Positions 8,698 to 25,436 of a stretch of 31,631 bases of DNA are shown here, piece after piece; position 1 is the stretch's first letter; each line of letters starts with the position of its first letter. Location: the NCBI RefSeq assembly GCF_000808015.1, contig NZ_JWHR01000104.1, positions 1 to 31,631 on the forward strand, read 5' to 3'. Made by a program: the position numbers and the translations under genes. The DNA comes from Terrisporobacter othiniensis (GTDB taxonomy: Bacteria > Bacillota > Clostridia > Peptostreptococcales > Peptostreptococcaceae). The notes under the pieces were generated by a model, which was given only the letters and a program-made list of their open reading frames with translations, was not told the DNA's origin and searched no databases.

Positions 8698-8796
8698 TTG
8701 TTGCTTGAGCAGCTGTTGGCCATATGAAGTAGAGCGCCAACGCAGTGGCTTAAAGTGTTTCAACCACACGTCGCTCAAGCGAAGCGAATTTTTTAT
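8698..8796 (+). repeat. dispersed hairpin-repeat family, divergent member R1
   Basis: A GC-richer segment in an AT-rich gap. It shares GCGCCAACGCAGTGGCTTAAA with members at 9411 and 25273 (GCGCCCACGCTGTGGCTTAAA). It also shares the tail AAGCGAAGCGAATTTTTT with members at 20488, 20549, 20832 and 25327. GCTTGAGC (8703-8710) is inverted as GCTCAAGC (8773-8780), and TGTTGGC is inverted as GCCAACG, so the unit can fold on itself. It follows a terminator, as other members do. Confidence 0.8.
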
Positions 8797-8819
8797 TCCA
8801 TATAAGTAGTTTATAATAG

Positions 8820-9332
8820 TTAGCTAATTATTTTTAGTTTTGTAAGATAATTTATAAATTTTTTAATAAAAATATTACAGATGCTTGAGTAAATAAGTGA
8901 AAATAAGAAAAATATTAAAAAAGTTAAAGTAGTTGAAAAAGAGCTAGCTAAATCTACAAAAGACACAATACCTACTATATAAGTTAAAAATATTATCCCA
9001 AGAGATAGTGCTACACTTGAAGATAGTATAGAAATTACTATTCCCTTCCTAAAAAGTAATGCTCCTATAACAATGCCTAGTAAACCTGTAGTGAAAAGCA
9101 GAATTATTGATTCTTGGATACTAATCATAGTAAGAATTAGTACTGAAGAAAAAAATACAGCAAGACCAAGAGGTATACTAGAAAAAGCAGCTATTGCAAT
9201 AGGTATAGTGCTTAATGGACTTAAGAACAATCCAATAGCTGGTAAAAATATAGGTGCTGATTGAAATATAACAGCTAATGTTGTTAATATGCCTCCAACA
9301 CAAATAAACCTGCTTATATTCATTTTATTCAA
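8820..9332 (-). CDS. polytopic membrane protein (about five TM segments)
   Basis: A 170-residue integral membrane protein with about five hydrophobic segments and very few charges: residues about 7-24, 27-49, 51-70, 75-90 and 100-160, the last of which may be two. The order of short loops resembles S-components of ECF transporters or DUF2232-type proteins, but no binding motif is visible and I do not assign a substrate. The frame is open to an ATG at 9365. However, AAGGAGG (minus strand, plus 9341-9347) sits inside that longer version, eight bases before a TTG at 9332, which I take as the start; an ATG at 9323 is the next option. It is alone on the minus strand, with dispersed repeats on both sides. 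Confidence 0.7.
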   Translation of the reverse strand: MNKMNISRFICVGGILTTLAVIFQSAPIFLPAIGLFLSPLSTIPIAIAAFSSIPLGLAVFFSSVLILTMISIQESIILLFTTGLLGIVIGALLFRKGIVISILSSSVALSLGIIFLTYIVGIVSFVDLASSFSTTLTFLIFFLFSLIYSSICNIFIKKFINYLTKLKIIS

Positions 9333-9380
9333 CTTTAATGCCTCCTTGTATAATATAGTTGTCATATTTGATAGAAAGTG

Positions 9381-9448
9381 GAGCGTCTACATACTGGCTT
9401 AAAATTGCATAGCGCCCACGCTGTGGCTCAAACGAAGGGAATTTTTTT
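9381..9448 (+). repeat. dispersed hairpin-repeat family, divergent member R2
   Basis: Contains GCGCCCACGCTGTGGCTCAAA (about 9412-9432), almost identical to the 25273 and 25370 members, and ends ACGAAGGGAATTTTTTT, a variant of the family tail. A first half TACTGGCTTAAAATTGCATA repeats the same theme in degraded form. It fills the gap between two minus-strand genes. Confidence 0.75.
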
Positions 9449-9453
9449 ATAAT

Positions 9454-10866
9454 CTAAGGAACAATCTCAAAAATAGTACCTTTGCCAAAATCAGCCACAT
9501 TGGCAGAGGCATAAACCCCTAAATAAAGTCTGGTTTGATTCATATTTGCCCCCAAACAAACATAATAAGCTGACTCAGAGCCAAAATCATAATCAGTTTC
9601 AATAACACTAAAATCATTTAGTTTAGAATCTTTTGTTGATTTTGTATAAGCTAAAACACCTTTCACTGGAGGTTTGGACTCTTCATTTTGGGCAAAATCA
9701 GTAAACACAACGCTTCCTGTTAAATCTGGTATATTGTTTCCCATATATGGCTGAACCCCTGTAAGAGCAGAACCATCAAATTTATCTGGTCGTGAATCCT
9801 TATGAAAATAACAGGCTAGAGGTGAAATACGCTGTGATGAAGTTTTTACTGCTTCATTGTAATAAGTAATTGTTATCTCGTTCAAAGTTGGACTTTCAGA
9901 GCAATCTCCTATAAGTGAAGTAGGTAAAGTACCTTCCCATCCACGCCAACCAAAGTTAATAAATTTTTCTTGTTCAGGTTGGGATTTTAAATGAGATTGA
10001 ACAAGATTAGTAACTGGCATTGGTCTATAATTAACAAATGAAAAAACTGACTCTACTAAATCCTGTCCAACATTCCCCACATATTTTATATATTGGTTAT
10101 AAAACTTTTGAAATGAAATTCCAGGGATATTGCGAACTCCTTTGGCCATTACAGTAAGGGTTTCTTGAATAGATATAGGAAGCTCATCAAAACGTGTGAC
10201 TACAGGCGGATCATTGATTAATGAATTCTTGTTTACATCAATTTCAATTATTTTACCGCAGATTTCCATATTATCCTGACTTAAGTTAAATGGATCATAG
10301 CCTGATCCACCATCTCCTGTTGTTAAAACAAGTTTTCCAGTTTCAGGTGAAAAGTTTAAGCTATTAACACCATTATGATTGAGAAATGGTCTTCTTAGAT
10401 TAAGCAATGTTCTTATTTTTTCAGGTTGGCCATTAGGTTGTAAAACCCATTCTTCAACTGTATCAATATGATCATATTTAGTATCTCTATGAGTCCATTT
10501 TAGATTTAAAGTTTCTATGTCACATGGGTTAGGTTTAAAAGGTTTTGAAAGAGCACCCGGACCTTGTGTTACTGCTACTGAATAATGAAGATAAAATAGA
10601 CCATTATAATAAAATGCTGGATGAAAGGCTAGACCTAGCAGCCCTCGTTCATCATATCCACCACTAGAAGTACCTAGTTCTATTATTCGAGGGCGAATAT
10701 CTAAAAAAGTATTTATAGCTCCCTTTGATATATAAAATATTCTTCCTACCTGAGTTGCAATAAATAAACTCTCACTTGAATCACCTGGCATGATAGTTGT
10801 TTTCAAAACAGTGGGTAAATCTATATTCTTAACAATAGGCTGTAAACTAACTTTAATTTTCTTCAT
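9454..10866 (-). CDS. glucose/sorbosone dehydrogenase-like beta-propeller protein
   Basis: A 470-residue protein of the GSDH type (soluble glucose dehydrogenase and HIP-like fold). ERGLLGLAFHP (73-83) is the family's most conserved motif. NHNG (163-166) contains the conserved His, TGDGG (183-187) follows it, and KGVRNIPG (about 253), GQDLVESVFSF (about 273) and NFGWRGWEG (about 312) match later blades. Characterised relatives use pyrroloquinoline quinone and calcium to oxidise sugars outside the cell. This protein has no signal peptide and no pqq gene is in view, so a redox reaction is uncertain. AAGGAG lies ten bases before the ATG on the minus strand. It is monocistronic, as far as can be seen. 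Confidence 0.85.
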   Translation of the reverse strand: MKKIKVSLQPIVKNIDLPTVLKTTIMPGDSSESLFIATQVGRIFYISKGAINTFLDIRPRIIELGTSSGGYDERGLLGLAFHPAFYYNGLFYLHYSVAVTQGPGALSKPFKPNPCDIETLNLKWTHRDTKYDHIDTVEEWVLQPNGQPEKIRTLLNLRRPFLNHNGVNSLNFSPETGKLVLTTGDGGSGYDPFNLSQDNMEICGKIIEIDVNKNSLINDPPVVTRFDELPISIQETLTVMAKGVRNIPGISFQKFYNQYIKYVGNVGQDLVESVFSFVNYRPMPVTNLVQSHLKSQPEQEKFINFGWRGWEGTLPTSLIGDCSESPTLNEITITYYNEAVKTSSQRISPLACYFHKDSRPDKFDGSALTGVQPYMGNNIPDLTGSVVFTDFAQNEESKPPVKGVLAYTKSTKDSKLNDFSVIETDYDFGSESAYYVCLGANMNQTRLYLGVYASANVADFGKGTIFEIVP

Positions 10867-11250
10867 TTAATACATACTCCTTCTTATTATTTGCTATAGA
10901 TAATCAAGTTCAATTTTTAACATATTTTTAGAGCAATGTTGATTTTTAAGCAGTGTGATTTAAAATGTTTGATTGAATTATGAAGATGTTTATCTATATT
11001 ACAATAATATGATTAGAACTATTGCATTAATACAGAATTGTGCCTAGAAATCCCTGGAGAGCAGTGTTTTAGAATCTAATATAATAGAAGTGGCAATTCA
11101 AGTTACTTCATGGCTTAAGAATTTATGTAAATAACTGGATACTTCATAGGCTTTTGCTATTTTTAGGATAATACTATTATTGATGATACTGTTATTATAG
11201 AAAAATATCACATTTTGATAATAAACTGGTAAATAAATAAAAAGAATTTA

Positions 11251-11361
11251 GTAATTTTATACTGTAAAGTATCTGTAAATGGAAAAAAACATATATTGAA
11301 GAAAAATGATATTGTATTAATTAATGGTACATTAAAAATATTTATAGTAATTATGTTTTAA
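11251..11361 (+). pseudogene. possible remnant of an AraC-type N-terminal cupin domain
   Basis: The frame reads VILYCKVSVNGKKHILKKND and then IVLINGTLKIF before a stop. The pattern 'G.....L+KNDIVLIN' is typical of the sensor domain of AraC-family regulators (NGKKYxLKKGDIILIN). It lacks a start, the rest of the domain and the DNA-binding part. The match is short, so chance resemblance is possible. Confidence 0.3.
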
Positions 11362-11413
11362 TATAAAAAAATATTTTTTTTGAAAAAACTATTTAAAATT
11401 TTTTAAAAATATG

Positions 11414-11419
11414 TATAAT
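11414..11419 (+). promoter_or_regulatory. -10 box of the riboswitch transcript
   Basis: TATAAT at 11414-11419, with TTTAAA 16 bases upstream as a weak -35. The expected start near 11426 leaves about 20 bases before the aptamer. Confidence 0.55.
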
Positions 11420-11442
11420 TTAGTATAGAAAATAAAAATTTA

Positions 11443-11635
11443 AAAACCGGCAAATCTAGAGAAATCTAGAGACGCAAAGCTAAAGGGGCTAAGGTTTAAT
11501 CAAACTATGCCAGCCAGTTGCCAAAGATTAATAGTCTTTGTTTTTGTATAGTGATTTTATAGTTATACTATAAGGTTATTTTATGATGTTTATTTTAGAT
11601 GGCAACTACCCTTTATATATAGGGTAGTTTTTTTT
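11443..11635 (+). ncRNA. class I cyclic di-GMP riboswitch (GEMM-I) with OFF-type terminator
   Basis: The aptamer spans about 11443-11523. GGCAA (11449-11453) pairs with TTGCC (11518-11522) as P1. P2 is TCTAGA-GAAA-TCTAGA with a GNRA tetraloop. The conserved GACGCAAAGC (11471-11480) follows, then the P3 arm ending ATGCCAGCCAGTTGCC. These are the signature elements of GEMM-I. A terminator stem (11604-11612 with 11621-11629) runs into a T-run. AGTTGCCA (11516-11523), the 3' side of P1, is complementary to TGGCAACT (11600-11607), which includes the base of the terminator's 5' arm. So ligand binding (P1 formed) frees the terminator, and absence of ligand permits an antiterminator. That predicts expression when c-di-GMP is low. 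Target: the M60 protease gene at 11729. Confidence 0.93.
11604..11635 (+). terminator. riboswitch-controlled terminator
   Basis: AACTACCCT with AGGGTAGTT, eight-base loop, followed by a T-run. The antiterminator alternative uses 11516-11523 with 11600-11607. Confidence 0.9.
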
Positions 11636-11728
11636 ATAAAATAATCATAAATCTACAATAAGATTATATTTGGGAATAGGTAGCAAAATCTTTATTTTTA
11701 AATTTATACATATGAGAGGGAGAATGGT

Positions 11729-14700
11729 ATGAAGAAAAAAATATCAGCAGTATTGGCAGTATCGATGATAGCTACTAACATTTCACCAGCAATAAATGTA
11801 TATGCCAATGAGATAGTAAAAGAAAAAGCTAGGATTATAGAGGAAAATGTAGTAAGCCAAGCTAAAATAACATCTTTTAATTTAAGGAATTATAGTAATT
11901 TTGAAGAGTACAATGCTAAATTTAGAGTAGCAAAAGAAGGAATTAAAAAAATATCTAATAACGGGGGCCAATATAGTTCTTCTAATTCAATAGAAAAGGC
12001 TATAGATGGAAATCTGTCAACTCATTGGGAAACTGGTACTCAAAATAGTGCAAATTTTAAAAATGAAGTTGTTATAGAATTTAATGATGTAGAATCGATT
12101 AATAGAATAGCATATGCAACAAGACAAGATGGAGCTAAAGGTAAGGGATATCCAACTAAATTTGAAATTTATTCATCTATAACAGGAGATGATCAAGATT
12201 TTAAATTAGTTTCCACTGGGGAACATTCTCAAACTGGAAATATGATGGAGTTTAAATTTGACACTATTACAACTAAGAAAGTTAAATTTGTATTTAAAGA
12301 AGCATATAATAACTGGGCAAGTGCATCAGAATTTTGGTTCTACAAAGAAGACAAAACTTTAGATAGTATGGAAAGTCTATTTAAAGACAGTGATAAAAAT
12401 GAAGTAAGTGATGAGTTCAAATCTGAAGAGAAACTTAAAGCTTTAGAGGATTGTGCTAAACAACATCCATTCTATGAAAATTTTAAAGAAGACTTAAACG
12501 ATGCTAGACTTATATTAGAAGGCAATAATGTAACTTATACAGATGCCAAAGTGTATAAGTTCAAAGCTATGGGAACTCCTGAATTAGCAGAGTATGATAA
12601 GACTTATAAGATAGCTAATAAGCATATAACTAATATAACTACTAACGGTAGACACTGGTCAACTAATACTATAGATAAAGCAATAGATGGTAATCCTGAC
12701 ACTTATTGGCACTCGGATGCTACAAACAATGAAAAACACACTAATGAAGTTATAATGACTTTAGACAAATTACAAACTTTAGATAAAGTAGTTTATACTT
12801 CACAAAGAGACAGAGGATTTGCTAAAGAGTTTGAAATTTATACTTCTAAAACTTTATCAGGAAATACATTCACTAAAGTAACTAGTGGTAGCTCTTCAAT
12901 AACTAGAGATTCAATAGCAATAAAGTTTAATCCAACTGAAGCTAGAAGAGTTAAGTTTGTATTTAAGAATGGTCACGAAGGCTGGGCATTAGCATCAGAG
13001 TTTGGACTTTATAAAGAAGATGCTACAATGAATAAGATGAATAGACTATTTACTGATAGCACTATGAGTAAAGTAAGTGATGAATTTAACACTTCTGATA
13101 AGTTAAAAGAATTAGAGGATGAATGCAAAAAACATCCATTCTATGATGATTTTAAAGAAGATTTAGATAATGCAAAGGCTATAGTAGAATCAATAGATGT
13201 AGAGAGTACTATGGCATCAACTAAGAAGTTTAATTATCTAGATAATAAAGAGTACGTAGATAAGTTCAGAATGCCTTATGAAAATATAAAACGTATAAGT
13301 AACAATGGTGGGCAATGGTCTACTATGAAAATAGAGAATGCTATAGACTCTAAATTAGATACATATTGGGAAACTAATACATATAACAGAGAAGATTGGA
13401 AGAACGAAGTAACTGTAGAGTTTGTAGATGCTGTTACTTTAGATAGAATAGTGTATGGAGCTAGACAAAGCGACAGAAAAGGATTCCTAGAAGAGTTTGA
13501 AATTTATGGTTCCAATACTACTAAAGGTGATACATTTAAATTAGTAGCAACAGCTAAAGCAGACTCTACTACTGGATTAGTAGAAGCTAAGTTTGAACCT
13601 ACAAGATTTAAGAGGTTAAAAATAAAAGTAATTAAGAGTAATCAAAACTGGGCAACATTAAATGAATTAATGTTCTTTAAAGAAGATGTTGTAGCAGACA
13701 AAGTTTATAACATATTTACTAATGATCTAATGAATGAGTTAAATTCAGAGTTCAACTCATTAGAAGTTATAGAAGCTTTAGAGAAAGAAGTAAAATCACA
13801 TCCACTTAAGAGTGACCTTATGGAAATTATAGATATGGCAAAAGATTTACTTAAAGCTCCTGATAAGTATCAAAGCAATGTTTATGAGTTAGAGAGCAGA
13901 GGAGATTCTATAAAGGAAAGTCAAAAGAGAAAAGTGTGGAATTTCCAAGACTGGCAACCTACAGGTGTAGCAGTTAAATCAGGTGAAAAGATAAATGTTT
14001 ATGTTGATGCACAACCTGGTACACCATTACCTAAGCTAGTATTCAAGCAAATGGATAGTCAACATAATGGTCAAGTGGTTATCAACTTAGTTAGAGGTAA
14101 GAATGAAGTTACAATACCTGAGGTTAATTCAAATGAACTAAGACCTGGAACTGCTAAAGCAGGAGTTTTATATACTTCAAACCCTTATACTGCAGAGCAA
14201 CAAATAAGAAATCCTAAGATAAGAATAGATGGTGGAGTAAGTTACCCACACTTCATAAAAGGTGTAGATAATGATGAACAGGTTATGGAGGAGTTACGTG
14301 AATACAATGCTAAGTTAGAAGCTGACCCTAAATTACCTGATGTGTTTGAAGTATTTAGTGATAAGACTTTAGTAAATGTTAAAGCAACATATGCTTTAGA
14401 CTGGTATACAAAGAATAACAAATTACCTAGCCAGACAGCAGATAAGTCTGATAAAGTAATAAAAGAAACAATGAGATATTGGGGATTTGACGGTTCAAAA
14501 GACGTACATTCAGACTTTAACTTTAGATATGTATCTATGGTTAAGTGGTTAGATAACGGTGGTTTCATGAATGCAGGAAACGGAATAACTGGATTTAACA
14601 AAGCAGAACAAGGTGGTGCCTTAAATGTTGACACTGGTTGGGGATTCATGCATGAAATGGGACACAATTTCGATACTAACAACAGAACAATAGGGGAAGT

Positions 14701-17467
14701 AACTAATAATATGTTACCTCTTCATTTCCAAAGAATAAATGGTGAACGTAGCAAAATATCTGAGCAAAATTTATGGGAGCGTAAAATATTCCCTAAAGTG
14801 AGTAAAGAAGATTACTCTAATAATGAGTGGTATCCAGATAATGATCGTAGTTTATTAACTCATATAGCTCCAATGTGGCAGTTACAATTATATGATGATA
14901 CATTCTGGCCTCGTTTAGAACAACAGTTTAGAGAAAGAAACATAGGTGGAGGAGATTGGGATAATAAACATGAAGCTTGGGCAGTAGTTGCATCAGATGT
15001 TCTTCAATTAGATTTAAAAGAGCATTTTGCTAGACATGGATTCTATGTTAGTGATGCTACAGCTGAGCATATGGCACAATATCCAAAACCAACTAAGAAG
15101 TTATGGTACCTAAATGATAATAAATACCTTAACAAAGGGGAAGGTTTTAACTCAGAACTTAATTATTCTGTAAAACATAGCCTAAGTCAAGATTCTGTTA
15201 AATTAGATATAACAATTGATAAAACTAATGCTAACAGTCTTCTTGGATATGAAATAATTAGAGACGGTGAAGTAATAGGATTTACTACTAAGGATACTTT
15301 TACTGATACTAATATAACTTCAGGTACTAATCACGAGTATAAAGTAGTAGCTTACGATACTCAATTAAATGCTTCTGAAGGTGTAAGTGTTAAAGCACAT
15401 CAACCTAAAATAGAAACAGTTGGAGGTTTAACTTTAAGTCTAAATGAGGAATTTAATGCACTAGATTACGTTAAAGCAACTGATTATAAAGGTAACCAAT
15501 TAAACAACATCACTTTTACTGACAATGTTGATGTTACTAAGCAAGGTAAGTACACAGTTACTTATGAAGTAAATGATAAAGGTACAGTTTCTAGAGAAAC
15601 TATGCAAGTTAATGTTGTTAGTGAGTACGACTATTTATCTGATAGTGAGTGGAAGAGTGTTGTAACAGGATACGGAACTCCTTCACGCAATAACTCTATA
15701 AAAGGAAGAACTTTAGGAGAAGTTAAAGACTATGATAAAGGGATAAGAGTACATGCTAATGGTGAAGTTGTTTATGATTTAGGTGAACATAACTATGACA
15801 ATTTCGAAGTAAAAGTTGGAGTAGATATGAATATGACACCTCAAGAAAACTCAAGTATAACTTTTAAAGTAGTTGGGGACGGAGAAACTTTAGCTACAAC
15901 AAAAGTTTTAAAACATGCAGATAATATGCAATATATAAATGTACCTATAAAAGGTGTTAAAGAACTTAAAATAGAAGTTAACGATGGTGGTAATGGAAAA
16001 ACTGCAGACCATGGTATAATGGTAGAGCCAAAGTTAACAACTAACAATGCTAAACCTAAGTTAAATATACCTAAATCTCAAACTGTTAAAGTAGGACAAG
16101 CTATAGAGAATATAGCTGGAACTTATAAAGCTACAGATGCAGAAGAAGGTAATTTAACTGAAAAAGTTGTAGTTACTGGACAAGATAAAGTTAACTTTAA
16201 GAGAGTTGGAAACTATACTATAACTTATAGTGTAACAGATAAAGATGGTAATAAAACAGAAAAGTCTAGAGTTATAAGTGTAATAAACCCAGAAGACTTC
16301 AAATATCTGAGCGATTTTGAGTGGAAGTCTGCAACAAAAGGTTGGGGAACTATAGGTAAAGATAATGCAGTAAGTGGTGCAAAGTTAAGACTTACTGGAG
16401 AAGATGGAAGTGTTGTAGAGTATGCTAAGGGTATAGGTACTCATTCTCATTCTGAGATAGTTTATGACCTAACAGACAAGAATGTTAACATGTTTAGTGC
16501 GTTTGTAGGTGTAGACCGTGCAATGTATAACAGCCCAGCAAGTATAGAATTCCAAGTTTATGTTGACGGAAAGAAGGAATACGAAAGTGGTGTAATGCGT
16601 GGTAGAGATGCTCAACAGTTTGTAGAGGTTGATTTAGCAGGAGCTAAAGAACTAAAGTTAGTTGCTACTGTAGGTGGCGATAATAATGGTTCAGATCATG
16701 CAAACTGGGCAGATGCTAAACTATACTTTGTGAATACTGATAGAATAGATACTACAGATTTAGATAAAGCTATAGAAGATGCTAATAAAGTAAATAAAGA
16801 TGATTACACTGAAGAAAGTGTAAAAACTTTAGAAGACAAATTAGCTAAAGCACAAGCTGTAGCAAAAGAAGAAAATCCTAGTCAAGAAGCTATAGACACT
16901 GCTACTTTTGAACTTCAAGAAAGTATAAAAAATCTAGTTGAAATAAATCTGGATGAAGTTGTAAATATACCTGATAAGTATTTAGTTAAGTCTTTAAGCA
17001 AAGCTTTAGGCAAAGAGGGTAACTTCACAATAGGTGATATGAGAAAATTAACTAAATTTAATGTAGGTTATGGTGTTGAAAGTCTTGAAGGTTTACAATA
17101 TGCTAAAAACTTAGAAATAATAGATGGCGAAAATAATGAAATAAGAGATCTTAGACCTATATCTAAATTAGAAAATTTAAAAGAGGTTAATTTCAATAAT
17201 CAATTTGTTCAAGTTGGTGAATTAAGACCTGTTGATGGTGTAGTTAAAGTTAATACAGAAGCTTACAATAGATTAGGAAAGAATGTAGCCACAAAAGTTA
17301 AATTAGTAGATAACAAAGGCAATTTAGTTAAGGAACAAATTATAGATAAAAACACTAAAGAAGTTGATTTAGATGTTAGAGGTATAACATCAGGTTACTA
17401 CGGAGTACATGTTACTTTTGAAGATACTGAGCTTAGTGGGATATTATTATATATGGCTATAATTTAA
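11729..17467 (+). CDS. secreted multidomain M60 (enhancin-type) metallopeptidase
   Basis: 1912 residues. A signal peptide (1-27, ending VYANE) is followed by three copies of a module of about 225 residues. Each has an F5/8 type C (discoidin) carbohydrate-binding domain (about 68-206, 295-430, 515-655) plus a helical linker ending HPFYENFKEDL or a variant. The M60 catalytic domain (about 725-1125) carries HEMGH at 975-979 with Glu990, fitting the HExxH(8-28)E zinc motif. Then come an FN3-like domain (1138-1225), an Ig-like domain (1228-1298), NPCBM (1298-1437), another Ig-like domain (1441-1520), a second NPCBM (1525-1669), a FIVAR helical pair (1672-1740), a short leucine-rich segment (1740-1815) and a beta C-terminus. 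Family members cleave mucin-type glycoproteins. No LPXTG or choline-binding anchor is visible. GAGGGAG precedes the ATG, and the c-di-GMP riboswitch lies 94-286 bases upstream. Confidence 0.95.
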   Translation: MKKKISAVLAVSMIATNISPAINVYANEIVKEKARIIEENVVSQAKITSFNLRNYSNFEEYNAKFRVAKEGIKKISNNGGQYSSSNSIEKAIDGNLSTHWETGTQNSANFKNEVVIEFNDVESINRIAYATRQDGAKGKGYPTKFEIYSSITGDDQDFKLVSTGEHSQTGNMMEFKFDTITTKKVKFVFKEAYNNWASASEFWFYKEDKTLDSMESLFKDSDKNEVSDEFKSEEKLKALEDCAKQHPFYENFKEDLNDARLILEGNNVTYTDAKVYKFKAMGTPELAEYDKTYKIANKHITNITTNGRHWSTNTIDKAIDGNPDTYWHSDATNNEKHTNEVIMTLDKLQTLDKVVYTSQRDRGFAKEFEIYTSKTLSGNTFTKVTSGSSSITRDSIAIKFNPTEARRVKFVFKNGHEGWALASEFGLYKEDATMNKMNRLFTDSTMSKVSDEFNTSDKLKELEDECKKHPFYDDFKEDLDNAKAIVESIDVESTMASTKKFNYLDNKEYVDKFRMPYENIKRISNNGGQWSTMKIENAIDSKLDTYWETNTYNREDWKNEVTVEFVDAVTLDRIVYGARQSDRKGFLEEFEIYGSNTTKGDTFKLVATAKADSTTGLVEAKFEPTRFKRLKIKVIKSNQNWATLNELMFFKEDVVADKVYNIFTNDLMNELNSEFNSLEVIEALEKEVKSHPLKSDLMEIIDMAKDLLKAPDKYQSNVYELESRGDSIKESQKRKVWNFQDWQPTGVAVKSGEKINVYVDAQPGTPLPKLVFKQMDSQHNGQVVINLVRGKNEVTIPEVNSNELRPGTAKAGVLYTSNPYTAEQQIRNPKIRIDGGVSYPHFIKGVDNDEQVMEELREYNAKLEADPKLPDVFEVFSDKTLVNVKATYALDWYTKNNKLPSQTADKSDKVIKETMRYWGFDGSKDVHSDFNFRYVSMVKWLDNGGFMNAGNGITGFNKAEQGGALNVDTGWGFMHEMGHNFDTNNRTIGEVTNNMLPLHFQRINGERSKISEQNLWERKIFPKVSKEDYSNNEWYPDNDRSLLTHIAPMWQLQLYDDTFWPRLEQQFRERNIGGGDWDNKHEAWAVVASDVLQLDLKEHFARHGFYVSDATAEHMAQYPKPTKKLWYLNDNKYLNKGEGFNSELNYSVKHSLSQDSVKLDITIDKTNANSLLGYEIIRDGEVIGFTTKDTFTDTNITSGTNHEYKVVAYDTQLNASEGVSVKAHQPKIETVGGLTLSLNEEFNALDYVKATDYKGNQLNNITFTDNVDVTKQGKYTVTYEVNDKGTVSRETMQVNVVSEYDYLSDSEWKSVVTGYGTPSRNNSIKGRTLGEVKDYDKGIRVHANGEVVYDLGEHNYDNFEVKVGVDMNMTPQENSSITFKVVGDGETLATTKVLKHADNMQYINVPIKGVKELKIEVNDGGNGKTADHGIMVEPKLTTNNAKPKLNIPKSQTVKVGQAIENIAGTYKATDAEEGNLTEKVVVTGQDKVNFKRVGNYTITYSVTDKDGNKTEKSRVISVINPEDFKYLSDFEWKSATKGWGTIGKDNAVSGAKLRLTGEDGSVVEYAKGIGTHSHSEIVYDLTDKNVNMFSAFVGVDRAMYNSPASIEFQVYVDGKKEYESGVMRGRDAQQFVEVDLAGAKELKLVATVGGDNNGSDHANWADAKLYFVNTDRIDTTDLDKAIEDANKVNKDDYTEESVKTLEDKLAKAQAVAKEENPSQEAIDTATFELQESIKNLVEINLDEVVNIPDKYLVKSLSKALGKEGNFTIGDMRKLTKFNVGYGVESLEGLQYAKNLEIIDGENNEIRDLRPISKLENLKEVNFNNQFVQVGELRPVDGVVKVNTEAYNRLGKNVATKVKLVDNKGNLVKEQIIDKNTKEVDLDVRGITSGYYGVHVTFEDTELSGILLYMAII

Positions 17468-17557: not shown

Positions 17558-17564
17558 ATTGTTT

Positions 17565-18840: not shown

Positions 18841-18862
18841 TGTTTTGCAAAAATTTAAAAAT

Positions 18863-19756: not shown

Positions 19757-19775
19757 TTTATCATCTCCAAAATAA

Positions 19776-19807: not shown

Positions 19808-19839
19808 CAATATTTATTATAACATGTCTGAAGTGAAGC

Positions 19840-19980
19840 TAGGTGATTCGCCAACACGTTGCTCAAAGCCCAGTTATTGACGCTATGAATTTATTTATAA
19901 ATCATTTTAAGCAATGGACTTTCCCGAAGTGGAACAAGGGAATGTTGTTGACGCTATGAATTTATTTATAAATTCATTTT
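19840..19980 (+). repeat. dispersed hairpin-repeat family, member E with truncated neighbour
   Basis: The full copy E is left arm GCAATGGACTTTCCC (19911-19925), loop GAAGTGGAACAA and right arm GGGAATGTTGTTGACGC (19938-19954). The 13-bp stem has one mismatch and a bulged G. A truncated unit precedes it (GATTCGCCAACACGTTGCTC, 19843-19864), ending in GACGCTATGAATTTATTTAT (19879-19898). That string recurs at 19950-19969 and overlaps the last codons and stop of the YvrJ gene. Confidence 0.8.
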
Positions 19981-20112: not shown

Positions 20113-20129
20113 ATTATCACCCTCTATAA

Positions 20130-20354
20130 CTAAACTTCTAAGTCGTACTCTGTAGTTGTAGAGTCAACCACTTTAGCAGAAACACAAGTTGCTATGTCAT
20201 ATCCCTTTGGTTGGAATATGTTTTTATCTTTTATCAGATTCATAGCATCTATTATTTCTTGCTCTTCCAAGTCTTCCCTTGGATTATCCACAGTAATAGA
20301 AAAACTATTACCTAAAGTATTTTTAAAAGTCATCAAAAGTCTTTTTTCCTTCAT
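20130..20354 (-). CDS. DUF2922 family protein
   Basis: 74 residues starting KEKRLLMTFKNTLGNSFSI and reading TVDNPREDLEEQEIIDAM, matching DUF2922: a strand, 'NxxGxxxxxxVxxPRxDLTxxEI', a helix, then 'AxxVDxxTTEYDL'. The family is small and uncharacterised and is found with DUF1659 and YvrJ proteins. GGGAGG lies eight bases before the ATG on the minus strand. The 17-base gap to YvrJ suggests co-transcription. Confidence 0.85.
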   Translation of the reverse strand: MKEKRLLMTFKNTLGNSFSITVDNPREDLEEQEIIDAMNLIKDKNIFQPKGYDIATCVSAKVVDSTTTEYDLEV

Positions 20355-20382
20355 AATTTAACCTCCCAAAATTTTTAAGTAA

Positions 20383-20566
20383 AGCGTAATTAGCAAAGCA
20401 AATCTTTAAGCAACGGAGTTTCCTGAAGCGATAGCGAAGGTAACTCGTTGGCGCTATGAAATGTTTCGCCGACACGTCGCTCAGGCGAAGCGAATCTTTA
20501 AGCAACGGATATGCCTAAAGCGATAGCGAGGGCACATCGTTGGCGCTATGAGCGAAGCGAATTTTA
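20383..20566 (+). repeat. dispersed hairpin-repeat family, members C and D
   Basis: Copy C: left GCAACGGAGTTTCCT (20410-20424), loop GAAGCGATAGCGA, right AGGTAACTCGTTGGCGC (20438-20454). Copy D: left GCAACGGATATGCCT (20502-20516), loop AAAGCGATAGCGA, right GGGCACATCGTTGGCGC (20530-20546), then the tail TATGAGCGAAGCGAATTTTA. Between them lies a unit with TTCGCCGACACGTCGCTCAG (20464-20483) and the same tail. The block fills the gap between the DUF1659 and DUF2922 genes. Confidence 0.88.
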
Positions 20567-20785
20567 TTCAGAGAGAGATGAGTTATCTACTCTGTTTGTG
20601 CCACATAAAGTATGTTCTTGTAACCCTGCAAGAGCAAGGACTACAGACATAATATTATCATTTGAAGCACCAGATTTTATGCTTGAATAAGTTTTTGTTT
20701 TTATTACTCTATCCCCATTTAAATCTGTACCATGATCAAATTTAACTTTGATAGAAGATGCGTTTGGTGTAGAAACAACTGCCAT
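20564..20785 (-). CDS. DUF1659 family protein
   Basis: 73 residues. The pattern SIKVKFDHGTDLNGDRVIKT, then KTYSSIKSGASNDNIMSVVL and ALAGLQ, is that of DUF1659. The family is uncharacterised and commonly precedes DUF2922 and YvrJ genes. A strong AAGGAGG lies seven bases before the ATG on the minus strand. Its stop codon lies at the edge of repeat member D, so the final residues (NSSLSE) read from repeat sequence. It is the first gene of the minus-strand set. Confidence 0.85.
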   Translation of the reverse strand: MAVVSTPNASSIKVKFDHGTDLNGDRVIKTKTYSSIKSGASNDNIMSVVLALAGLQEHTLCGTNRVDNSSLSE

Positions 20786-20812
20786 ATTATTACCTCCTTA
20801 AATTTTTTATAA

Positions 20813-20850
20813 AGGAAACTCGCCTATGTTATGAGCGAAGCGAATTTCAC
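20813..20850 (+). repeat. dispersed repeat family, tail fragment R5
   Basis: GGAAACTCGCCTATGTTATGAGCGAAGCGAATTTCAC-like sequence, carrying the TATGAGCGAAGCGAATTT tail but no left arm. It lies upstream of the DUF1659 gene. Confidence 0.7.
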
Positions 20851-20939
20851 TATACGTACATAATACTAGGAAAAGTTTAGGTACAGTTGAAAAGTATATT
20901 TATAAGTTATTTTTAAAAGTAAATCAAAAAAAGAATAAC

Positions 20940-21000
20940 TGTCCAATAAAAATGCTAAGTGTCCAATAAAAATACTAAATATCCAAATAGATATAGGATA
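20940..21000 (+). promoter_or_regulatory. 20-bp direct repeats, probable operator of the XRE gene
   Basis: GTCCAATAAAAATGCTAAGT (20941-20960) and GTCCAATAAAAATACTAAAT (20961-20980) differ at two positions. A third unit begins ATCCAAATAGATATAGGATA (20981). The 20-base period is close to two DNA turns, which suits tandem binding of a small regulator. It lies about 70 bases upstream of the XRE start. Confidence 0.6.
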
Positions 21001-21067
21001 ATATGTGCTAATATCTAAGTACATGTAGAAAAAATTTAGATTATATATGATTTTGGGAGGGAGTAAA

Positions 21068-21319
21068 TTGAAAGACAGATTTTATGTAAATGATGAATTA
21101 TACAAACTTAGAAAGGAAATGGGATTGTCCAGAGAAAAGCTTGCAGCAAGATGCAAAATTTCGCCTAAAACTATTCAAAGAGCTGAAAATGGGGAGAAAG
21201 TTAAAATTTATAGTATTGAAGAAATTGCAAATGGACTTGAGGTAGATAAGCATACATTGATAAATATGAATGAAGATGAAAATATTATAGAAAATAATAA
21301 AATTAAATTATTAGAATAG
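21068..21319 (+). CDS. XRE-family HTH transcriptional regulator
   Basis: 83 residues. The HTH spans roughly residues 9-62: ELYKLRKEMGLSREKLAARC, then KISPKTIQRAENGEKV and a helix with IEEIANGLEVD. The tail is acidic and Asn-rich. The frame is open to an ATG at 21047, but GGGAGGG (21055-21061) lies inside that version and six bases before a TTG at 21068, which is the better start. It is divergent from the minus-strand DUF1659 set and converges on the ABC-3C operon. Upstream 20-bp repeats suggest self-regulation. It may be a phage-type repressor remnant or the regulator of either neighbour. Confidence 0.85.
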   Translation: MKDRFYVNDELYKLRKEMGLSREKLAARCKISPKTIQRAENGEKVKIYSIEEIANGLEVDKHTLINMNEDENIIENNKIKLLE

Positions 21320-21473
21320 GGAAAGTTGTAAGTGGCAAAACGTTATTGTTAGATAAAGATAGAAGAGTATAATAGGAATAATCTGGAGTATTTACTATAT
21401 AAGTATAATCATAGAATCTATCATAATGTTTATACTATGTATGTTTTTGAGTATAGTAAGGATTGTTTAGGAT

Positions 21474-21505
21474 AAAGAACTTGGCAGTTTTGCCAAGTTC
21501 TTTTT
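21474..21505. terminator. bidirectional terminator between the XRE gene and the ABC-3C operon
   Basis: Perfect 13-bp stem AAAGAACTTGGCA (21474-21486) with TGCCAAGTTCTTT (21491-21503), loop GTTT. It has T residues after it on the plus strand and serves the minus-strand ABC gene ending at 21507. Confidence 0.9.
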
Positions 21506-21506
21506 G

Positions 21507-23318
21507 TTATTTATTATCTAAATAAAGAAACCCACACCTTCCAGGGCACTTGCCCTTTGTAAATTCAATCACATTTGCTCCAGAGGATTTATAATCAAGT
21601 TTTGGCATAGTATTTTTATTTTCCACAACTATGACCTGACCTTCACTTTGATTATCCATAAAGTATTTAAATAGAGCAGTTCTCATGCTTTCGGGAGCCA
21701 GGTCGTCTACGCCTTGGTCTAGGCCAAGGAGTGGAGAATCTATCATTAGTAGACCAGGATTATATTTGCTGTTATTTGCAAAGTATTTTCTAAATGTCAG
21801 TGTTAGAACTGTGTTGACAAATGCTTTGATACCTTTACCATGGCTAGCTGATTTTTTTGAGCCATTAATTTCTAAATCAAAATTACTAAGATTAAAATGA
21901 GCAGACACTAGATTTTCATATTTACATTTTTCTAAAATCTCGTAGGCGTAGTTGTCTATGGTAGTTATAAAATCATCGCTGAAATATTCTTTAGGTCTAT
22001 AGTTCAATTGGCTATTGTTTTGTGTTGTTAGCTGGCGCAAGTCTTGTGTAGTAGTTTGGGCGAAATCCTGGATAAAATCAATTTCGTTACTTAGTTTCAA
22101 AAACTCACCATAAATTTTAATAGATTTAGTAAGTTTTTTTGCACGTGGTTTTAAGTTTTCTGTAATTAACAATTCTATGTTTGATTTCTCATTTTCAAAA
22201 ATTTCAATTTGGCTTTGTATATTATGTTTTTCTTCTAAAATATCTTCTTCGCAGTTAATAAGATCTTTTAATTGGTAAGTTATGCGTGCAAGTTCACCAC
22301 GAGCAGATTCTTTGTAAGATATTTTATTGTTTGGTTTTATTTCTCCTTCACAAAAAGGACACTGAGTATTTTCAAGCATGGTTAGAAGATTGGACTCACC
22401 GTCTACAATAAAAGTCAATCTTTTAATATCAGCTATATATTGACTTTTCAAAGATTGAAATTGTGAGATGGATAATTCACATTTTGCGTATTTTTCTCTT
22501 AAATCAAAAAGAATACTTAGAAGGTCCTTGCTTTGCTCTGTTGCATTTATGATTTCTTTTTCTGTAGATTTAAGATCAGCTACAAGTTCTTCTATATCTT
22601 TTTCAATATTTATATTTTCAAAAGTACTCAATTGTTCAGTAAGCTCCCTCTTACGTTTTTCCATGTGACCTAGTTGTTTATTGATAAAATTTTCTATGGC
22701 TTTTTTATTGGAAGCTCTTATTTTCTCATTTTCCTGTGCATCAATATTAGAAAAACTATGTCCAGTAAATAAATATAATAAAGATGATAGAAACAATGTT
22801 TTTGAAGTGCTTTCCATAAGTTCCAGGAAAGATTTTGATGAACATACGTTATCTTCGTTAAGATAAATTAATTTCATAAAAGTTTTCCAAGTCATGCGGC
22901 GTTTTTCAAAACTTTTATTATATACAAGCATAATATCTTCATTAATACCTATAAGTTTTAGCCATAGGGAATTTATACAAGGAGTTTTGCTATTGCTATT
23001 ATATTCCACGTTATATTTTCCACCAGCTATATTTTTGTCTTCGCTAGTGACAAAGATTTGATTTCTTCCTAAACTTCGCTGGAGTTTAATGCTACCATTT
23101 TCTGTTGCTACAATCATTTCAACTTTAGAATAACCTGTGATTTTTGTATCAAAAGGTATTGTAGATTTATCAAACATAAAGTTTATGCATTTTAGTATGC
23201 AAGATTTCCCTGTATCAGATGGGCCATGTATAATGTTTAACCCTTTTGTAAATGTAATTACTGCATCTTTTTTCCCCTTACCAGATGCAATGATTTTTTG
23301 TATGTAAAAACTAGCCAT
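21507..23318 (-). CDS. ABC-3C system Rad50-like ABC ATPase (DUF3732 type)
   Basis: 603 residues. Walker A is GPSDTGKS (32-39). A long central coiled coil (about 195-440) carries a zinc-hook-like CPFC (320-323). The signature region is SASHGKGIKAF (490-500), Walker B is LLMIDSP (523-529) with Ser where most ABC proteins have Glu, and GLDQG (532-536) is the D-loop area. VVEN (564-567) stands at the switch-His position. These features and the genetic context fit the DUF3732-type ATPase of three-component ABC (ABC-3C) systems, which are predicted conflict/defence systems. AAGGAG overlaps the end of the previous gene, whose stop is five bases upstream, so translation is coupled. It probably senses or clamps nucleic acid; this is inferred from the family. 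Confidence 0.9.
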   Translation of the reverse strand: MASFYIQKIIASGKGKKDAVITFTKGLNIIHGPSDTGKSCILKCINFMFDKSTIPFDTKITGYSKVEMIVATENGSIKLQRSLGRNQIFVTSEDKNIAGGKYNVEYNSNSKTPCINSLWLKLIGINEDIMLVYNKSFEKRRMTWKTFMKLIYLNEDNVCSSKSFLELMESTSKTLFLSSLLYLFTGHSFSNIDAQENEKIRASNKKAIENFINKQLGHMEKRKRELTEQLSTFENINIEKDIEELVADLKSTEKEIINATEQSKDLLSILFDLREKYAKCELSISQFQSLKSQYIADIKRLTFIVDGESNLLTMLENTQCPFCEGEIKPNNKISYKESARGELARITYQLKDLINCEEDILEEKHNIQSQIEIFENEKSNIELLITENLKPRAKKLTKSIKIYGEFLKLSNEIDFIQDFAQTTTQDLRQLTTQNNSQLNYRPKEYFSDDFITTIDNYAYEILEKCKYENLVSAHFNLSNFDLEINGSKKSASHGKGIKAFVNTVLTLTFRKYFANNSKYNPGLLMIDSPLLGLDQGVDDLAPESMRTALFKYFMDNQSEGQVIVVENKNTMPKLDYKSSGANVIEFTKGKCPGRCGFLYLDNK

Positions 23319-23323
23319 GTATT

Positions 23324-23773
23324 TTATCTCCTTTGAAATCCCCTTATTGATTCTTTGCTTATTAGGCCTAAAATTTCTGTTTCTGTTTTAGATTCTAGGT
23401 ATTTATTTGTTAGTTTTGATAATTTCATATAAGTTTTGGCATAATCTGTTGTCATTTTATTGCATAAATCTATGCCGCCCTCTGTAATAAAATAGTAAAA
23501 TCCATTACTTTCAAATGAGACAGAGATAAGGTTTTGTAAAACTAATGATTTTATAGCATCATCAGTTAAGTACCTTCTAGCTGCAAACTCACTGAAACTA
23601 AATTCACTATCACCATGTAAATTTATATCAGCTACATTAAAATTTTTACTATATATAGTTATAAAATCAGCAGCCACAATATAATCAAACGTTTTCCTGT
23701 CTTCCTTAGTTACATAAAGTGTTAATAGTACTCTTAAGGAAATTTCAAAACTTGTATTAAATAGATTACTCAT
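23324..23773 (-). CDS. ABC-3C system middle component
   Basis: 149 residues. A mostly helical protein starting SNLFNTSFEISLRVLLTLYV, with a winged-helix-like middle and an ITEGGIDLCNKM segment near residue 105. The pattern (FNxxFEIxLRILLLL, then YI.xYSxDFNI..xNLHG) is typical of the small middle component linking the ATPase to the effector-like protein in ABC-3C systems. Its ATG overlaps the end of the upstream gene by eight bases, and its last codons contain the ribosome binding site of the ATPase gene. Function in detail unknown. Confidence 0.82.
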   Translation of the reverse strand: MSNLFNTSFEISLRVLLTLYVTKEDRKTFDYIVAADFITIYSKNFNVADINLHGDSEFSFSEFAARRYLTDDAIKSLVLQNLISVSFESNGFYYFITEGGIDLCNKMTTDYAKTYMKLSKLTNKYLESKTETEILGLISKESIRGFQRR

Positions 23774-24767
23774 TATCTAGCACCCACGTGAGTTCTTTGT
23801 CATTTACCAACATGTGGCAGATGCCTTTCCTTACACTTGGGCTAATCATATTTTGAACAGAGTCAAGTATTGATGTTGTTCTACTATCAACTGCTCTTTC
23901 TAAAACTTTAATCAATCTTTCATAACCATGTTTATAATCACCTTCATAAGTCTCTTGAATATATTCTAGGGTGTCATTTTTTAAAATATCAAACTGCTTA
24001 TCTGAACCAACAAATACTTCTCTCACTGAGCGGTGAAGATGCTCTGCTTTGTAAAAGTTTTTTCGCTGATTTTTAAAATTACGTTCGTATTTTTTACTTG
24101 AAAGGCTAGGCAAGTCATCTATGGTAATAGGCTCTCTATTTTCAGCATCACCATAAGCTGCAAATAGTGCATTTACATATATATTTTCTTGCACAGCGAT
24201 ATCATCAGGTGGCAGAAATTCTTTTGGAATGGAAATTGATTCATTACCAATGTGGATTTTACCATCTGAATGATCCAAATAAACTGTTGTAGCAGTTACT
24301 TCATGTATATGTTTCTTATCTTTAGTAACACTAGATGTTGATTTAGTAGAATGAGAATTGCCTGTAAAAATATCATCTAAAACTTTAGAAAAAACTTCTG
24401 CACAACTTTCACCCACATCATCAGAGTCAAAATCTAAAATATGCTTTTGTATGGAAGTTGCCATTTCTAATTGAACATCTATGGGTTTGCTGTTTATATA
24501 AGTAGCAAATTGGTGCTTGTCAATTTTCCCCTTTATAGCAGAGGCACTTCTTTTACTTATGGGATGTTTACCATTATAAATTCTATTAAGAGTATCTATT
24601 TTCAGTAAAGAAAGTGGATTATAAGTATCATTTTCAGATGCTTCAATATCCTCCTTAGAAACTGGACTGGTCATTATTTTGTCAACAAGAGTCTTAACAA
24701 ACTCAGATGGCAATTGTCCTTCAGCGCAAAATGGATATAGTATATTTGCAAATTCACTAAAATTCAT
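23766..24767 (-). CDS. ABC-3C system C-terminal-domain protein
   Basis: 333 residues and first in the operon. Residues 1-115 are a helical region containing SLLKIDTLNRIYNGKHPISK, which looks like a helix-turn-helix-sized element, not a known nuclease or toxin. A Ser/Thr/Lys-rich linker follows (about 142-155). Residues about 220-333 hold the ABC-3C C-terminal pattern: KNQRKNFYKAEHLHRSVREVF, then FDILKNDTLEYI, YERLIKVLERA and RKGICHMLVNDKELTWVLDN. In better-known members this domain tethers an effector to the ATPase. Here I see no catalytic motif in the N-terminal part, so its activity is open. AAGG lies about 12 bases before the ATG. Confidence 0.85.
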   Translation of the reverse strand: MNFSEFANILYPFCAEGQLPSEFVKTLVDKIMTSPVSKEDIEASENDTYNPLSLLKIDTLNRIYNGKHPISKRSASAIKGKIDKHQFATYINSKPIDVQLEMATSIQKHILDFDSDDVGESCAEVFSKVLDDIFTGNSHSTKSTSSVTKDKKHIHEVTATTVYLDHSDGKIHIGNESISIPKEFLPPDDIAVQENIYVNALFAAYGDAENREPITIDDLPSLSSKKYERNFKNQRKNFYKAEHLHRSVREVFVGSDKQFDILKNDTLEYIQETYEGDYKHGYERLIKVLERAVDSRTTSILDSVQNMISPSVRKGICHMLVNDKELTWVLDNE

Positions 24768-24795
24768 TTAATTTATTTATCCTTTCAAAAAAATA

Positions 24796-24903
24796 TCCGA
24801 CTTTCTCCCATTACCTCCGATTTACTCCTATGGAAAAGTTTTGTTTTTTGTAAACTAATTTATATAAAAAGGATTTATATAAAAATGATTTATAAAAAAA
24901 AGA
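24796..24903 (-). promoter_or_regulatory. upstream region of the ABC-3C operon with two sets of direct repeats
   Basis: TCCGACTTTCTCC (24796-24808) recurs as TCCGATTTACTCC (24816-24828), 20 bases apart. Further upstream, a 15-base unit ATTTATATAAAAAGG (24858-24872) recurs at 24873-24887 and, partly, 24888-24902. The second set is TA-rich on the minus strand and may hold the promoter; the first set may be a regulator site. The rest of the 243-base gap to 25010 shows nothing else. Confidence 0.45.
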
Positions 24904-25010
24904 AAAAATATCAGTCGAATTAAAATTACTTAATTATATTGTAGCAGGAAATTTTACAATTTTCAGTTGCATGTTTTCAAAGAGTGAAAATTTTAACAGG
25001 AGGTGGGAAT

Positions 25011-25160
25011 ATGGAGGTAATAAAAAATATTAAAGGTAAGACAGTTTGTCGTGTGGACTCTACAAATAAGACTGTGGAGATTGTTCAAAAAGGTTTTAAG
25101 ACAGTGATCCAGTTTATGGAAGATGGAAGTATGAAGATAATAAATACGCAGGTTATGTAA
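25011..25160 (+). CDS. small phage-type protein of unknown function
   Basis: 49 residues (MEVIKNIKGKTVCRVDSTN, then KTVEIVQKGFKTVIQFMEDG). It predicts a compact beta structure. Very similar short proteins open replication modules of clostridial phages and mobile elements; I know no function. AGGAGGTG (24998-25005) lies five bases before the ATG, an excellent start. A terminator follows, so it is transcribed separately from, or partially uncoupled from, the replication cassette. Confidence 0.75.
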   Translation: MEVIKNIKGKTVCRVDSTNKTVEIVQKGFKTVIQFMEDGSMKIINTQVM

Positions 25161-25193
25161 GCGTTGTTAAATAGAATAAATACAAAGAACCGC

Positions 25194-25245
25194 AAGACGG
25201 GCAAGGATGAGTATTCAGTTGAATACCACCTGCCCGTCTTTTTTT
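25194..25245 (+). terminator. branched terminator after the small phage-type gene
   Basis: Outer stem AAGACGGGCA (25194-25203) with TGCCCGTCTT (25231-25240), inner stem GTATTCA with TGAATAC, then a T-run. Dispersed repeat copy A starts at once after it. Confidence 0.9.
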
Positions 25246-25436
25246 GAGCAACGGATATATCCAAAATTTCATGGCGCCCACGCTGTGGCTTAAAGCGATA
25301 ACGAGGATATATCGTTGGCGATATGAGCGAAGCGAATTTTTGAGCAATGGATTTATCCCAAATTTCATGGGGCCCACGCTGTGGCTTAAAGCGATAACGA
25401 GGGTAAATCGTTGGCGATATGAGCAAGTAAATGAAA
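25246..25436 (+). repeat. dispersed hairpin-repeat family, members A and B in tandem
   Basis: Two 96-base units. A: left GCAACGGATATATCC (25248-25262), right GGATATATCGTTGGC (25305-25319). B: left GCAATGGATTTATCCC (25344-25359), right GGGTAAATCGTTGGC (25401-25415). Between the arms both have an extra insert with GGCGCCCACGCTGTGGCTTA or GGGGCCCACGCTGTGGCTTA, then the core loop AAAGCGATAACGA. The upper stems differ between A and B, but each matches its own partner. A full tail GAGCGAAGCGAATTTTT separates the units. Confidence 0.92.

Follow-up and report, generated by a model that had tools for sequence, protein, structure and literature searches.

A mobile family of REP/BIME-like hairpin elements with a terminator T-tract target in Terrisporobacter and related clostridia

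The window analysed here, a stretch of 31,631 nucleotides (nt) from Terrisporobacter othiniensis (contig NZ_JWHR01000104.1), contains short dispersed hairpins whose upper stems differ from copy to copy while the two arms of each copy still match. What are these repeats, and why does the pairing persist when the letters do not? A first-pass annotation of the window had offered three candidate roles: a mobile element resembling repetitive extragenic palindromes (REPs) or miniature inverted-repeat transposable elements (MITEs), a structured RNA element, or a barcode-like site recognised by shape. Our analysis shows that the window repeats belong to a dispersed family of non-autonomous elements. 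The mobility of the element is well supported, and the family resembles REPs and bacterial interspersed mosaic elements (BIMEs) with terminator T-tracts as target. On the mechanism, we consider it somewhat probable, at roughly 55%, that the elements are moved in trans as folded single-stranded DNA (ssDNA) and inserted after terminator T-runs. Many genes in these genomes are followed by hairpins that would be puzzling without this family.

Direct reading of the window confirmed the five hairpins that had been claimed. They begin with AGCAAYGG at positions 19910, 20409, 20501, 25247 and 25343, and each right arm pairs with its own left arm. All eight upper pairs are formed in copy 25247, and eight are formed in copy 25343 once one T is bulged; copies 19910, 20409 and 20501 have one mismatch each among the eight, with an additional T.G pair in 20501. 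The unpaired G predicted to follow CAACG or CAATG is present in all five. The tail GAGCGAAGCGAAT, thought to be shared by all copies, is uninterrupted in two of them (20501 and 25247) and is split by an inverted hairpin in 20409, shortened in 25343 and missing from 19910.

Full-length copies of about 115-200 nt consist of a left hairpin, a variable hairpin B, inverted hairpins C, a 3' mini-hairpin GCGAAGC and a T-run. The smallest elements, a solo hairpin B, measure about 65 nt, and the largest, of about 200 nt, run from a left hairpin through C, B, C and the mini-hairpin to the T-run. A long class (11 aligned copies of about 165 nt from Terrisporobacter and Romboutsia genomes) and a short class (13 aligned copies, mostly of about 117 nt, from genomes G001, G008 and G038) share the order left hairpin, hairpin B, GGCGNNATGA, mini-hairpin and T-run, and genomes G011 and G010 contain a larger composite with an inverted hairpin C on either side of B. 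Hairpin C is the inverted version of hairpin B, and the orientation of the units alternates as in BIMEs. Upstream of 188 mini-hairpin tails, a pattern scan found B in 104 cases, B-B in 14, C-B in 10, C in 9, C-B-C in 7, B-C in 6, B-B-B in 4, no unit in 31 and other arrangements in 3. Visual inspection gives GAGC..GGCG as the feet of the hairpins and shows that the ends of the full element, TTTTTTACGCTTAA.. and ..GCGAATTTTTT, are not terminal inverted repeats; the left part alone has the inverted ends TTTTTTACGCTTAA/TTGAGCGTAAAAAA. From 32 of the 45 left ends that were read, the sequence goes straight to B and the tail. In twelve of the other 13, the same composite is read in a longer or diverged form, and the last (L307) is a left part only.

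An exact pattern scan of 84,980 species, the sole search reaching beyond the bacterial family, returned 26 stretches, all filed under Terrisporobacter, Romboutsia, Faecalimicrobium or Paraclostridium, genera of the Peptostreptococcaceae, or under 'Clostridium sp.'; the same pattern had no match in IMG/VR. Ten genomes picked for containing an exact match hold 7, 18, 20, 21, 22, 34, 38, 44, 65 and 90 copies of CGTTGGCGNTATGAGCGAAGCGAA at up to 3 mismatches, and the reversed control gave none in any of them. Of 60 sampled genomes of the family, 38 contain the core pattern GGCGNNATGARCGNAGYGAA at up to 2 mismatches, 22 of them in at least 10 copies; the reversed control of this pattern gives 0-2 matches per strand and in one genome as many as 3, which places counts of 1-3 within the background. 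A diverged variant, GGCGCCATGAACTATGTGAA, is present with close forms in several copies in genome G051 and may be a separate subfamily. Two loci of genome G008 (L061 and L062, contigs C259 and C215) carry tandem arrays of a 48-nt repeat unit, at six and five places head to tail. A description of the family was not found in the titles and abstract starts of the open-licence literature searched.

Mobility and the terminator target

The closest relatives of the window among the ten repeat-bearing genomes are T. petrolearius (G003) and T. mayombei (G007), whose longest matches to the window are 84-89% identical. Along a syntenic chain of about 165 kb between their contigs C192 (G003) and C221 (G007), four of seven gap-type differences are signature-bearing insertions in G003; a fifth pair was rejected as an empty-site candidate, its signature-bearing indel being a hairpin deletion in G003. 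A wider empty-site search with 229 queries yielded 43 candidate pairings, including duplicate sites and paralogous alignments inside repeat arrays, and the sites relied on are those legible by eye: L052, L259, L098, L114, L117, L180 (two), L199 and the pair of elements at 20.4 kb of the window. In one example, the empty site CTATTTTTTTGTAAATT corresponds to the filled site CTATTTTTTT-element-TTTTTGTAAATT. The window pair (20.4-20.56 kb) is absent from the G007 loci L164 and L165, from genome G004 (L170) and from the related place in genome G002 (L174); the G003 loci at this site hold one copy (L167) and one that is partly deleted (L168), and the G007 locus L166 has diverged hairpin-like sequence. 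Window positions 8690-8784 are likewise without a counterpart in G007, as judged from the coordinates of two adjoining G007 matches.

Near-identical copies are found at different sites. Among the non-tandem pairs listed for G011, the best five have identities of 98.59-98.62% over 142-145 nt, and the best pair in G010 reaches 99.3% over 144 nt; a pair of 100% identity in G003 (L007/L023) has a shared flank, is probably a segmental duplication and was not counted as movement. Single empty sites could be mimicked by precise loss between flanking T-runs, but dispersal at many unrelated sites is not explicable in this way. The copies are thus not always at the same orthologous place, and empty sites, near-identical copies and a preferred target bear out the mobile REP/MITE-like element among the initial candidates.

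Full-length copies start directly 3' of a T-run on the same strand. The motif used to find 72 such copies itself demanded a T-run of at least 3, and some of the 72 are weak matches, so that the independent evidence for a T-run target consists of the empty sites and the excess of terminators. A hairpin of at least 6 effective pairs directly precedes the T-run in 51 of the 72 copies, compared with 155 of 737 control runs of T6 or longer taken from anywhere in loci over 8 kb, intergenic or not (odds ratio 9.1, p = 2e-17).

T-runs stand on both sides of filled sites, the right one being of length 6 in 40 of the 72 copies, 4 in 20 and 5 in 10. This could equally be a target duplication, as left by a double-strand (DDE-type) transposase that moves a MITE and duplicates a T6A target, the hairpins being its binding sites or by-products. 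The A that follows the right T6 in 17 of 17 cases in G011 (by eye) and the inverted ends of the left part alone fit such an enzyme, and the family resembles MITEs in being non-coding and multicopy with empty sites in relatives. The lengths of left and right T-runs, however, correlate weakly (Spearman 0.26, p = 0.025), the ends of the full element are not inverted repeats, and the extrahelical G and the GNA/GNNA loops described below are left unexplained. We therefore regard a DDE-type MITE as unlikely.

The copies are mostly intergenic. Seventeen of 150 isolated copies overlap a mechanically called open reading frame (ORF), many of these short; the other 133 lie after a codirectional ORF in 106 cases, after an opposite one in 25 and without a called ORF in 2. 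They are also co-oriented with replication, in G011 at 93 of 96 left ends and 35 of 40 right ends, in G057 at 17 of 22 and in G027 at 8 of 10. On contig C5 of G010, which does not hold the origin, 25 of 25 are on the plus strand below 1.05 Mb and 22 of 25 on the minus strand above 1.33 Mb, and the 6 in the interval are of mixed orientation. Gene orientation shows a comparable bias, at 283 of 324 ORFs over 400 kb of G010 and 94 of 104 over 140 kb of G011, and the strand bias was dropped as proof of ssDNA or lagging-strand insertion for this reason.

At several shared sites, copies have been eroded by deletions that often extend from the T-run (L167, L165, L183, L168 and window 20.81 kb). In these cases, fixed copies thus do not strongly preserve their pairing, in keeping with selection that acts on active source copies rather than on a resident function. 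An example to the contrary is window copy 20409, which is set apart from its G003 counterpart by two paired changes in the inner mini-hairpin (GC-GATA-GC against AT-GATA-AT).

Covariation, loops and the folded form

Covariation was measured on 23 hairpins of one size class, with rows hand-picked from listings; the set omits copies of other lengths and some poorly paired ones, and its statistics ignore relatedness. In this set, 95.7% of the cells are paired, against 81.6±1.2% in shuffles, and the covariation score is 0.440 against 0.157±0.018, neither value being reached in any of 500 shuffles. Both-side changes occur at 9 of 15 pairs (matched by 4 of 500 shuffles), slid structures are at most 49.2% paired, and one mismatch recurs, with pair 12-37 unpaired in 10 of 23 rows. 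A broader, unselected scan yielded 129 distinct strings, many of which are chance matches or out-of-register readings; it gave 3.74 own pairs of 7 compared with 2.52±0.10 when arms were swapped, and none of 5000 shuffles was as high. A first hairpin scan at up to 4 mismatches had proved too permissive to be used (157 of 234, compared with 105 for shuffles), and a strand test of G.T versus A.C mismatches (68 vs 40) was discarded because of the chance strings in the set of 129. The second foot pair N-N', in which both letters are free, is A-T in 132 cases, C-G in 30, G-C in 17 and other in 6 (n = 185; reversed control 1), much of this contrast falling between hairpin types B and C. The closing pair of the tail mini-hairpin is G-C in 97, A-T in 31, G.T in 8 and A.C in 7 (n = 143).

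Covariation is thus present in the stems, for which the first-pass annotation had proposed either selection for the folded form or a process that copies both arms. The covariation statistics, in which relatedness of the copies was left in, and the foot pairs support selection for the fold. A copying process is not needed, because the unpaired base is almost invariably a G (84 of 84 minimal hairpins with its position left free, 23 of 23 chosen rows) and blind copying of a palindrome should erase it. In the loose set of 129 strings, the unpaired position is a G in 71.

Inner mini-hairpins have GNNA in 40 of 45 that were scored (49 distinct hairpins, 4 without a loop, with a scorer that favoured GNNA where two readings were possible), and 4 of these 40 are GNRA and 36 GNYA. 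Among minimal hairpins, the loop is GAA in 66 of 84 and GNA in 73 of 84, and the tail triloop is GNA in 122 of 148. DNA mini-hairpins in which a GNA or GNNA loop sits on two or more G-C pairs are described as extraordinarily stable; GCGAAGC melts at 78 °C and shields a 3' end from exonucleases (PMC4686876). The loop types therefore suggest, but do not prove, that DNA rather than RNA is the folded molecule; CpG decay alone could yield the AAA and TG variants.

This bears on whether the repeats could be a resident structured RNA that is selected on the transcript, for example for protection of mRNA 3' ends or for termination. Such an RNA would account for the compensatory changes and for the codirectional ORF upstream of 106 of the 131 intergenic copies with a called upstream ORF. 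Yet full-length copies begin in a terminator T-tract, where little transcript is expected, their loops are GNYA rather than the RNA-type GNRA (36 vs 4), and several fixed copies decay by deletion. At gathering thresholds, no Rfam family lies over the repeats, the sole match in the window being a c-di-GMP-I riboswitch. Positive evidence was found neither for an RNA role, which we judge to be distinctly unlikely, nor for the barcode role suggested at first.

About equally improbable is that the paired changes stem from hairpin-templated repair (quasipalindrome correction) and not from selection, with mobility as a separate matter. The tandem units at 25247 and 25343 are nearly identical in the loop while their stems differ by one double change (the third upper pair, A-T to T-A) and three single changes, as such repair could produce, and the two paired changes in the inner mini-hairpin of copy 20409 point the same way. 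Templated repair should, however, remove the unpaired G, which has stayed nearly invariant, and the recurrent mismatch at pair 12-37 persists. A retroelement of the SINE type (short interspersed nuclear element), whose reverse transcription by a group II or other enzyme would be primed at the T-tract, is very improbable despite the conserved 3' end, the T-runs and some 5'-shortened copies (9 of 136 tails without a left arm), because the reverse transcriptase domain RVT_1 is rarer in high-copy than in low-copy genomes (5 of 22 vs 20 of 38) and lacking in G011 and G010, and because the shortened copies inspected at shared sites are secondary deletions.

Proposed mechanism and search for the mover

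In the reading that we favour, the elements would be moved in trans, through a single-stranded intermediate, by an ssDNA transposase, most likely of the HUH/Y1 type. A structure-specific enzyme of this kind would recognise the folded strand by its shape, namely the hairpin foot GAGC..GGCG, one extrahelical G and the tight GNA/GNNA mini-loops, so that drift of the stem letters would be tolerated as long as the two arms change in step. A nearly invariant unpaired base within covarying stems is what shape-reading proteins such as the REP transposase TnpA-REP require, and the bulge of the Escherichia coli REP is reported to be required for activity (PMC8266576). Y1-like chemistry would place the element, without target duplication, on the 3' side of a T-run, with a preference for the T-tracts of intrinsic terminators. 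Because the element ends in its own T-run, the terminator would keep a T-tract, and this new end would be a target for the next copy, which would give rise to tandem arrays.

Several observations weigh against this reading, in addition to the T-runs on both sides of filled sites. The replication co-orientation in G011 (93 of 96) is not significantly above the gene baseline (94 of 104; p = 0.085). The G is absent at the start of 7 of 77 distinct inner strings, some of them misreadings. When the unit at 25247 was folded as DNA, the main stem was not the minimum (z -1.41; 21 of 200 shuffles as good) and pairing that involves the C and B flanks was favoured, so that the hairpin as drawn should not be read as the sole fold. 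A full G011-type element folds little better than its shuffles (z -1.12, 23 of 200); hairpin B with its tail reached z -2.41 (3 of 200). No autonomous version was seen among the 45 of 135 left ends that were read.

A linked transposase of the TnpA-REP type, which the first-pass annotation had suggested looking for, was sought both at Y1 loci and by co-occurrence, and none was convincingly linked. The Y1_Tnp domain is present in 29 of 60 genomes, namely 10 of the 22 that hold 10 copies or more and 19 of the remaining 38 (Fisher p = 0.79), and neither G007 nor G010 (R. timonensis) has a Y1 match. The Y1 loci L057-L059 contain no exact repeat motif, and 15 of 16 further Y1 loci lack the signature at up to 3 mismatches within about 1.5 kb on each side. 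At the 16th, L222 of G011, a diverged copy lies about 1.2 kb from the insertion sequence (IS), and another element lies about 2 kb from a second of the four Y1 copies in this genome; with 96 left ends in 2.58 Mb, such nearness is unremarkable. Matches near Y1 genes in L211 and L212 at up to 4 mismatches were set aside as occurring at the chance rate (100 on the two strands of 4.23 Mb of reversed sequence). Insertion sequences that collapse in assembly may be absent from draft genomes. For T. mayombei, four IS elements are reported, of which IS21 is the one named (PMC10564238).

A lead, although not a link, comes from G011, the genome with the clearest recent amplification. Its loci L219-L222 contain an IS200-like element of about 736 bp with a Y1 transposase, in four copies of 99.3-99.7% identity. 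Judged by eye, these copies follow T-rich tracts, at least two are beside terminator-like hairpins, and their own hairpins look unlike those of the repeat; this Y1 enzyme would thus have a similar target. A Y2 (IS91-type) transposase, present in 1 of 12 genomes (G010), does not fit as mover. An integron attC/IntI system was rejected as well, as 0 of 12 genomes exceeded the IntI cut-off and sub-cut-off matches occurred in all 12 and in all 14 controls. A bolder version of the ssDNA reading, which we hold to be possible but doubtful, is an element class without a Y1 enzyme of its own, in which a host or mobile ssDNA recombinase would read the extrahelical-G hairpin by shape and join it to terminator T-tracts, while the 3' d(GCGAAGC) mini-hairpin would cap the single-stranded intermediate and resist nucleases.

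The closest known systems are REPs, BIMEs and the REP-derived REPINs with their transposase TnpA-REP (REP-associated tyrosine transposase, RAYT), which are described as short, imperfect, intergenic hairpins of high copy number with an unpaired irregularity and alternating direct and inverted units (PMC8266576, PMC3733652). The clostridial repeat shares the imperfect palindrome, the conserved unpaired base and units in both orientations, as in C-B-C. It differs in having no GTAG or CGTC tag beside the stem, where the feet are GAGC..GGCG (by eye), in its T-tract target, in a full-length unit of up to about 200 nt and in having no linked RAYT. The bcr1 repeat of the Bacillus cereus group is, by its description, another non-coding Firmicute element with tens of copies per genome, mobile features, a mobility-linked T-rich motif (TTTAT) and a mover that is unknown (PMC6542083); the repeat described here uses T6A in terminator T-tracts and has recurring inverted hairpin units and the 3' GCGAAGC mini-hairpin. 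Clop-1 of Clostridium perfringens and Clot-1 of C. tetani are short stem-loop repeats with a predicted conserved structure in other species and, compared by description only, may be related (PMC2267715). The mobile/repeat sequence candidates (MRSC) are multicopy structured motifs that are thought to be mobile and perhaps relevant as DNA, and the main-text passages of their report name no matching motif (PMC11109978).

Palindrome-associated transposable elements (PATEs) are non-autonomous IS200/IS605 derivatives. Like the repeat, they have a hairpin near each end and no inverted ends, and insertion 3' of a short preferred motif would be a further shared trait; the repeat differs in hairpins unlike the IS200-like ones of G011 (by eye) and in that no Y1 partner was found. 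For clostridia, this would be a REP-like family with signs of recent activity and a clear safe-haven target, the terminators. That its transposase is missing poses a concrete question that can be tested, and the copies offer a rich natural record of changeable base pairs next to a hardly changing unpaired base, which should be useful for finding the enzyme.

Elements and neighbouring features of the window

The insertion target lies on the plus strand at 25194-25245, where an intrinsic terminator hairpin (inverted repeat AAGACGGGCA../..TGCCCGTCTT, by eye) is followed by a T7 tract. Directly after it, unit 1 (25246-25341, plus strand) has hairpin B with AGCAACGG at 25247-25254 and CGTTG at 25313-25317, an inverted hairpin C within the B loop (25275-25290), the mini-hairpin GCGAAGC (25327-25333) and a T5 run. 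Unit 2 (25342-25425, plus strand) is a tandem copy placed after this T-run, with a truncated tail and 93% identity over 88 nt. A second pair on the plus strand comprises an element at 20404-20495 (hairpin B 20409-20453, inverted hairpin C 20467-20481, mini-hairpin 20485-20491) and its tandem copy at 20496-20566 (hairpin B 20501-20545, mini-hairpin 20552-20558, T-run), preceded by a remnant mini-hairpin (GCAAAGCAAAT) of a further decayed unit at 20393-20403 (plus strand). The diverged element at 19905-19960 (plus strand) retains hairpin B, with AGCAATGG at 19910-19917 and TGTTG at 19946-19950, without the mini-hairpin tail; a further inverted hairpin C, AGC-AAC-GT..GTT-GGCG, lies on the minus strand at 19849-19863.

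Three more sites, near 8.70, 9.41 and 20.81 kb, had been flagged as diverged members and are indeed fragments of the same family, all on the plus strand. A decayed composite at 8700-8793, downstream of a terminator at about 8661-8686, keeps a B remnant, an inverted C (8735-8750), the mini-hairpin (8779-8785) and a T-run, and another at 9380-9449 has an inverted C (9413-9428) and the remnant tail CGAAGGGAATTTTTTT. The remnant at 20805-20848 is truncated at its 5' end, and its full hairpin is retained in the related G003 locus L167.

The window region 20120-20800 and loci L164-L170 represent a small operon, presumably a pair of DUF2922 and DUF1659 type, that is found several times over in Terrisporobacter genomes and has elements lying between its genes. 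Elsewhere in the window, a 139-nt direct repeat (1-139 and 3925-4063, 96% identical) flanks a gene for a leucine-rich-repeat protein (385-2787), and the c-di-GMP-I riboswitch (83.9 bits, 11439-11525) precedes the gene of a 1912-amino acid protein with a Peptidase_M60 domain (11729-17467). A three-gene cluster of the ABC-3C type at 21507-24767 (AAA_23, Middle Component 2 and CTD6) is a candidate defence system. Directly after the tandem elements, positions 25451-30659 hold phage-like genes that possibly mark a prophage edge, with matches to sigma-70 region 4 (just under the cut-off), a DUF2800 nuclease, an Enc34 ssDNA-binding protein and DNA polymerase A.

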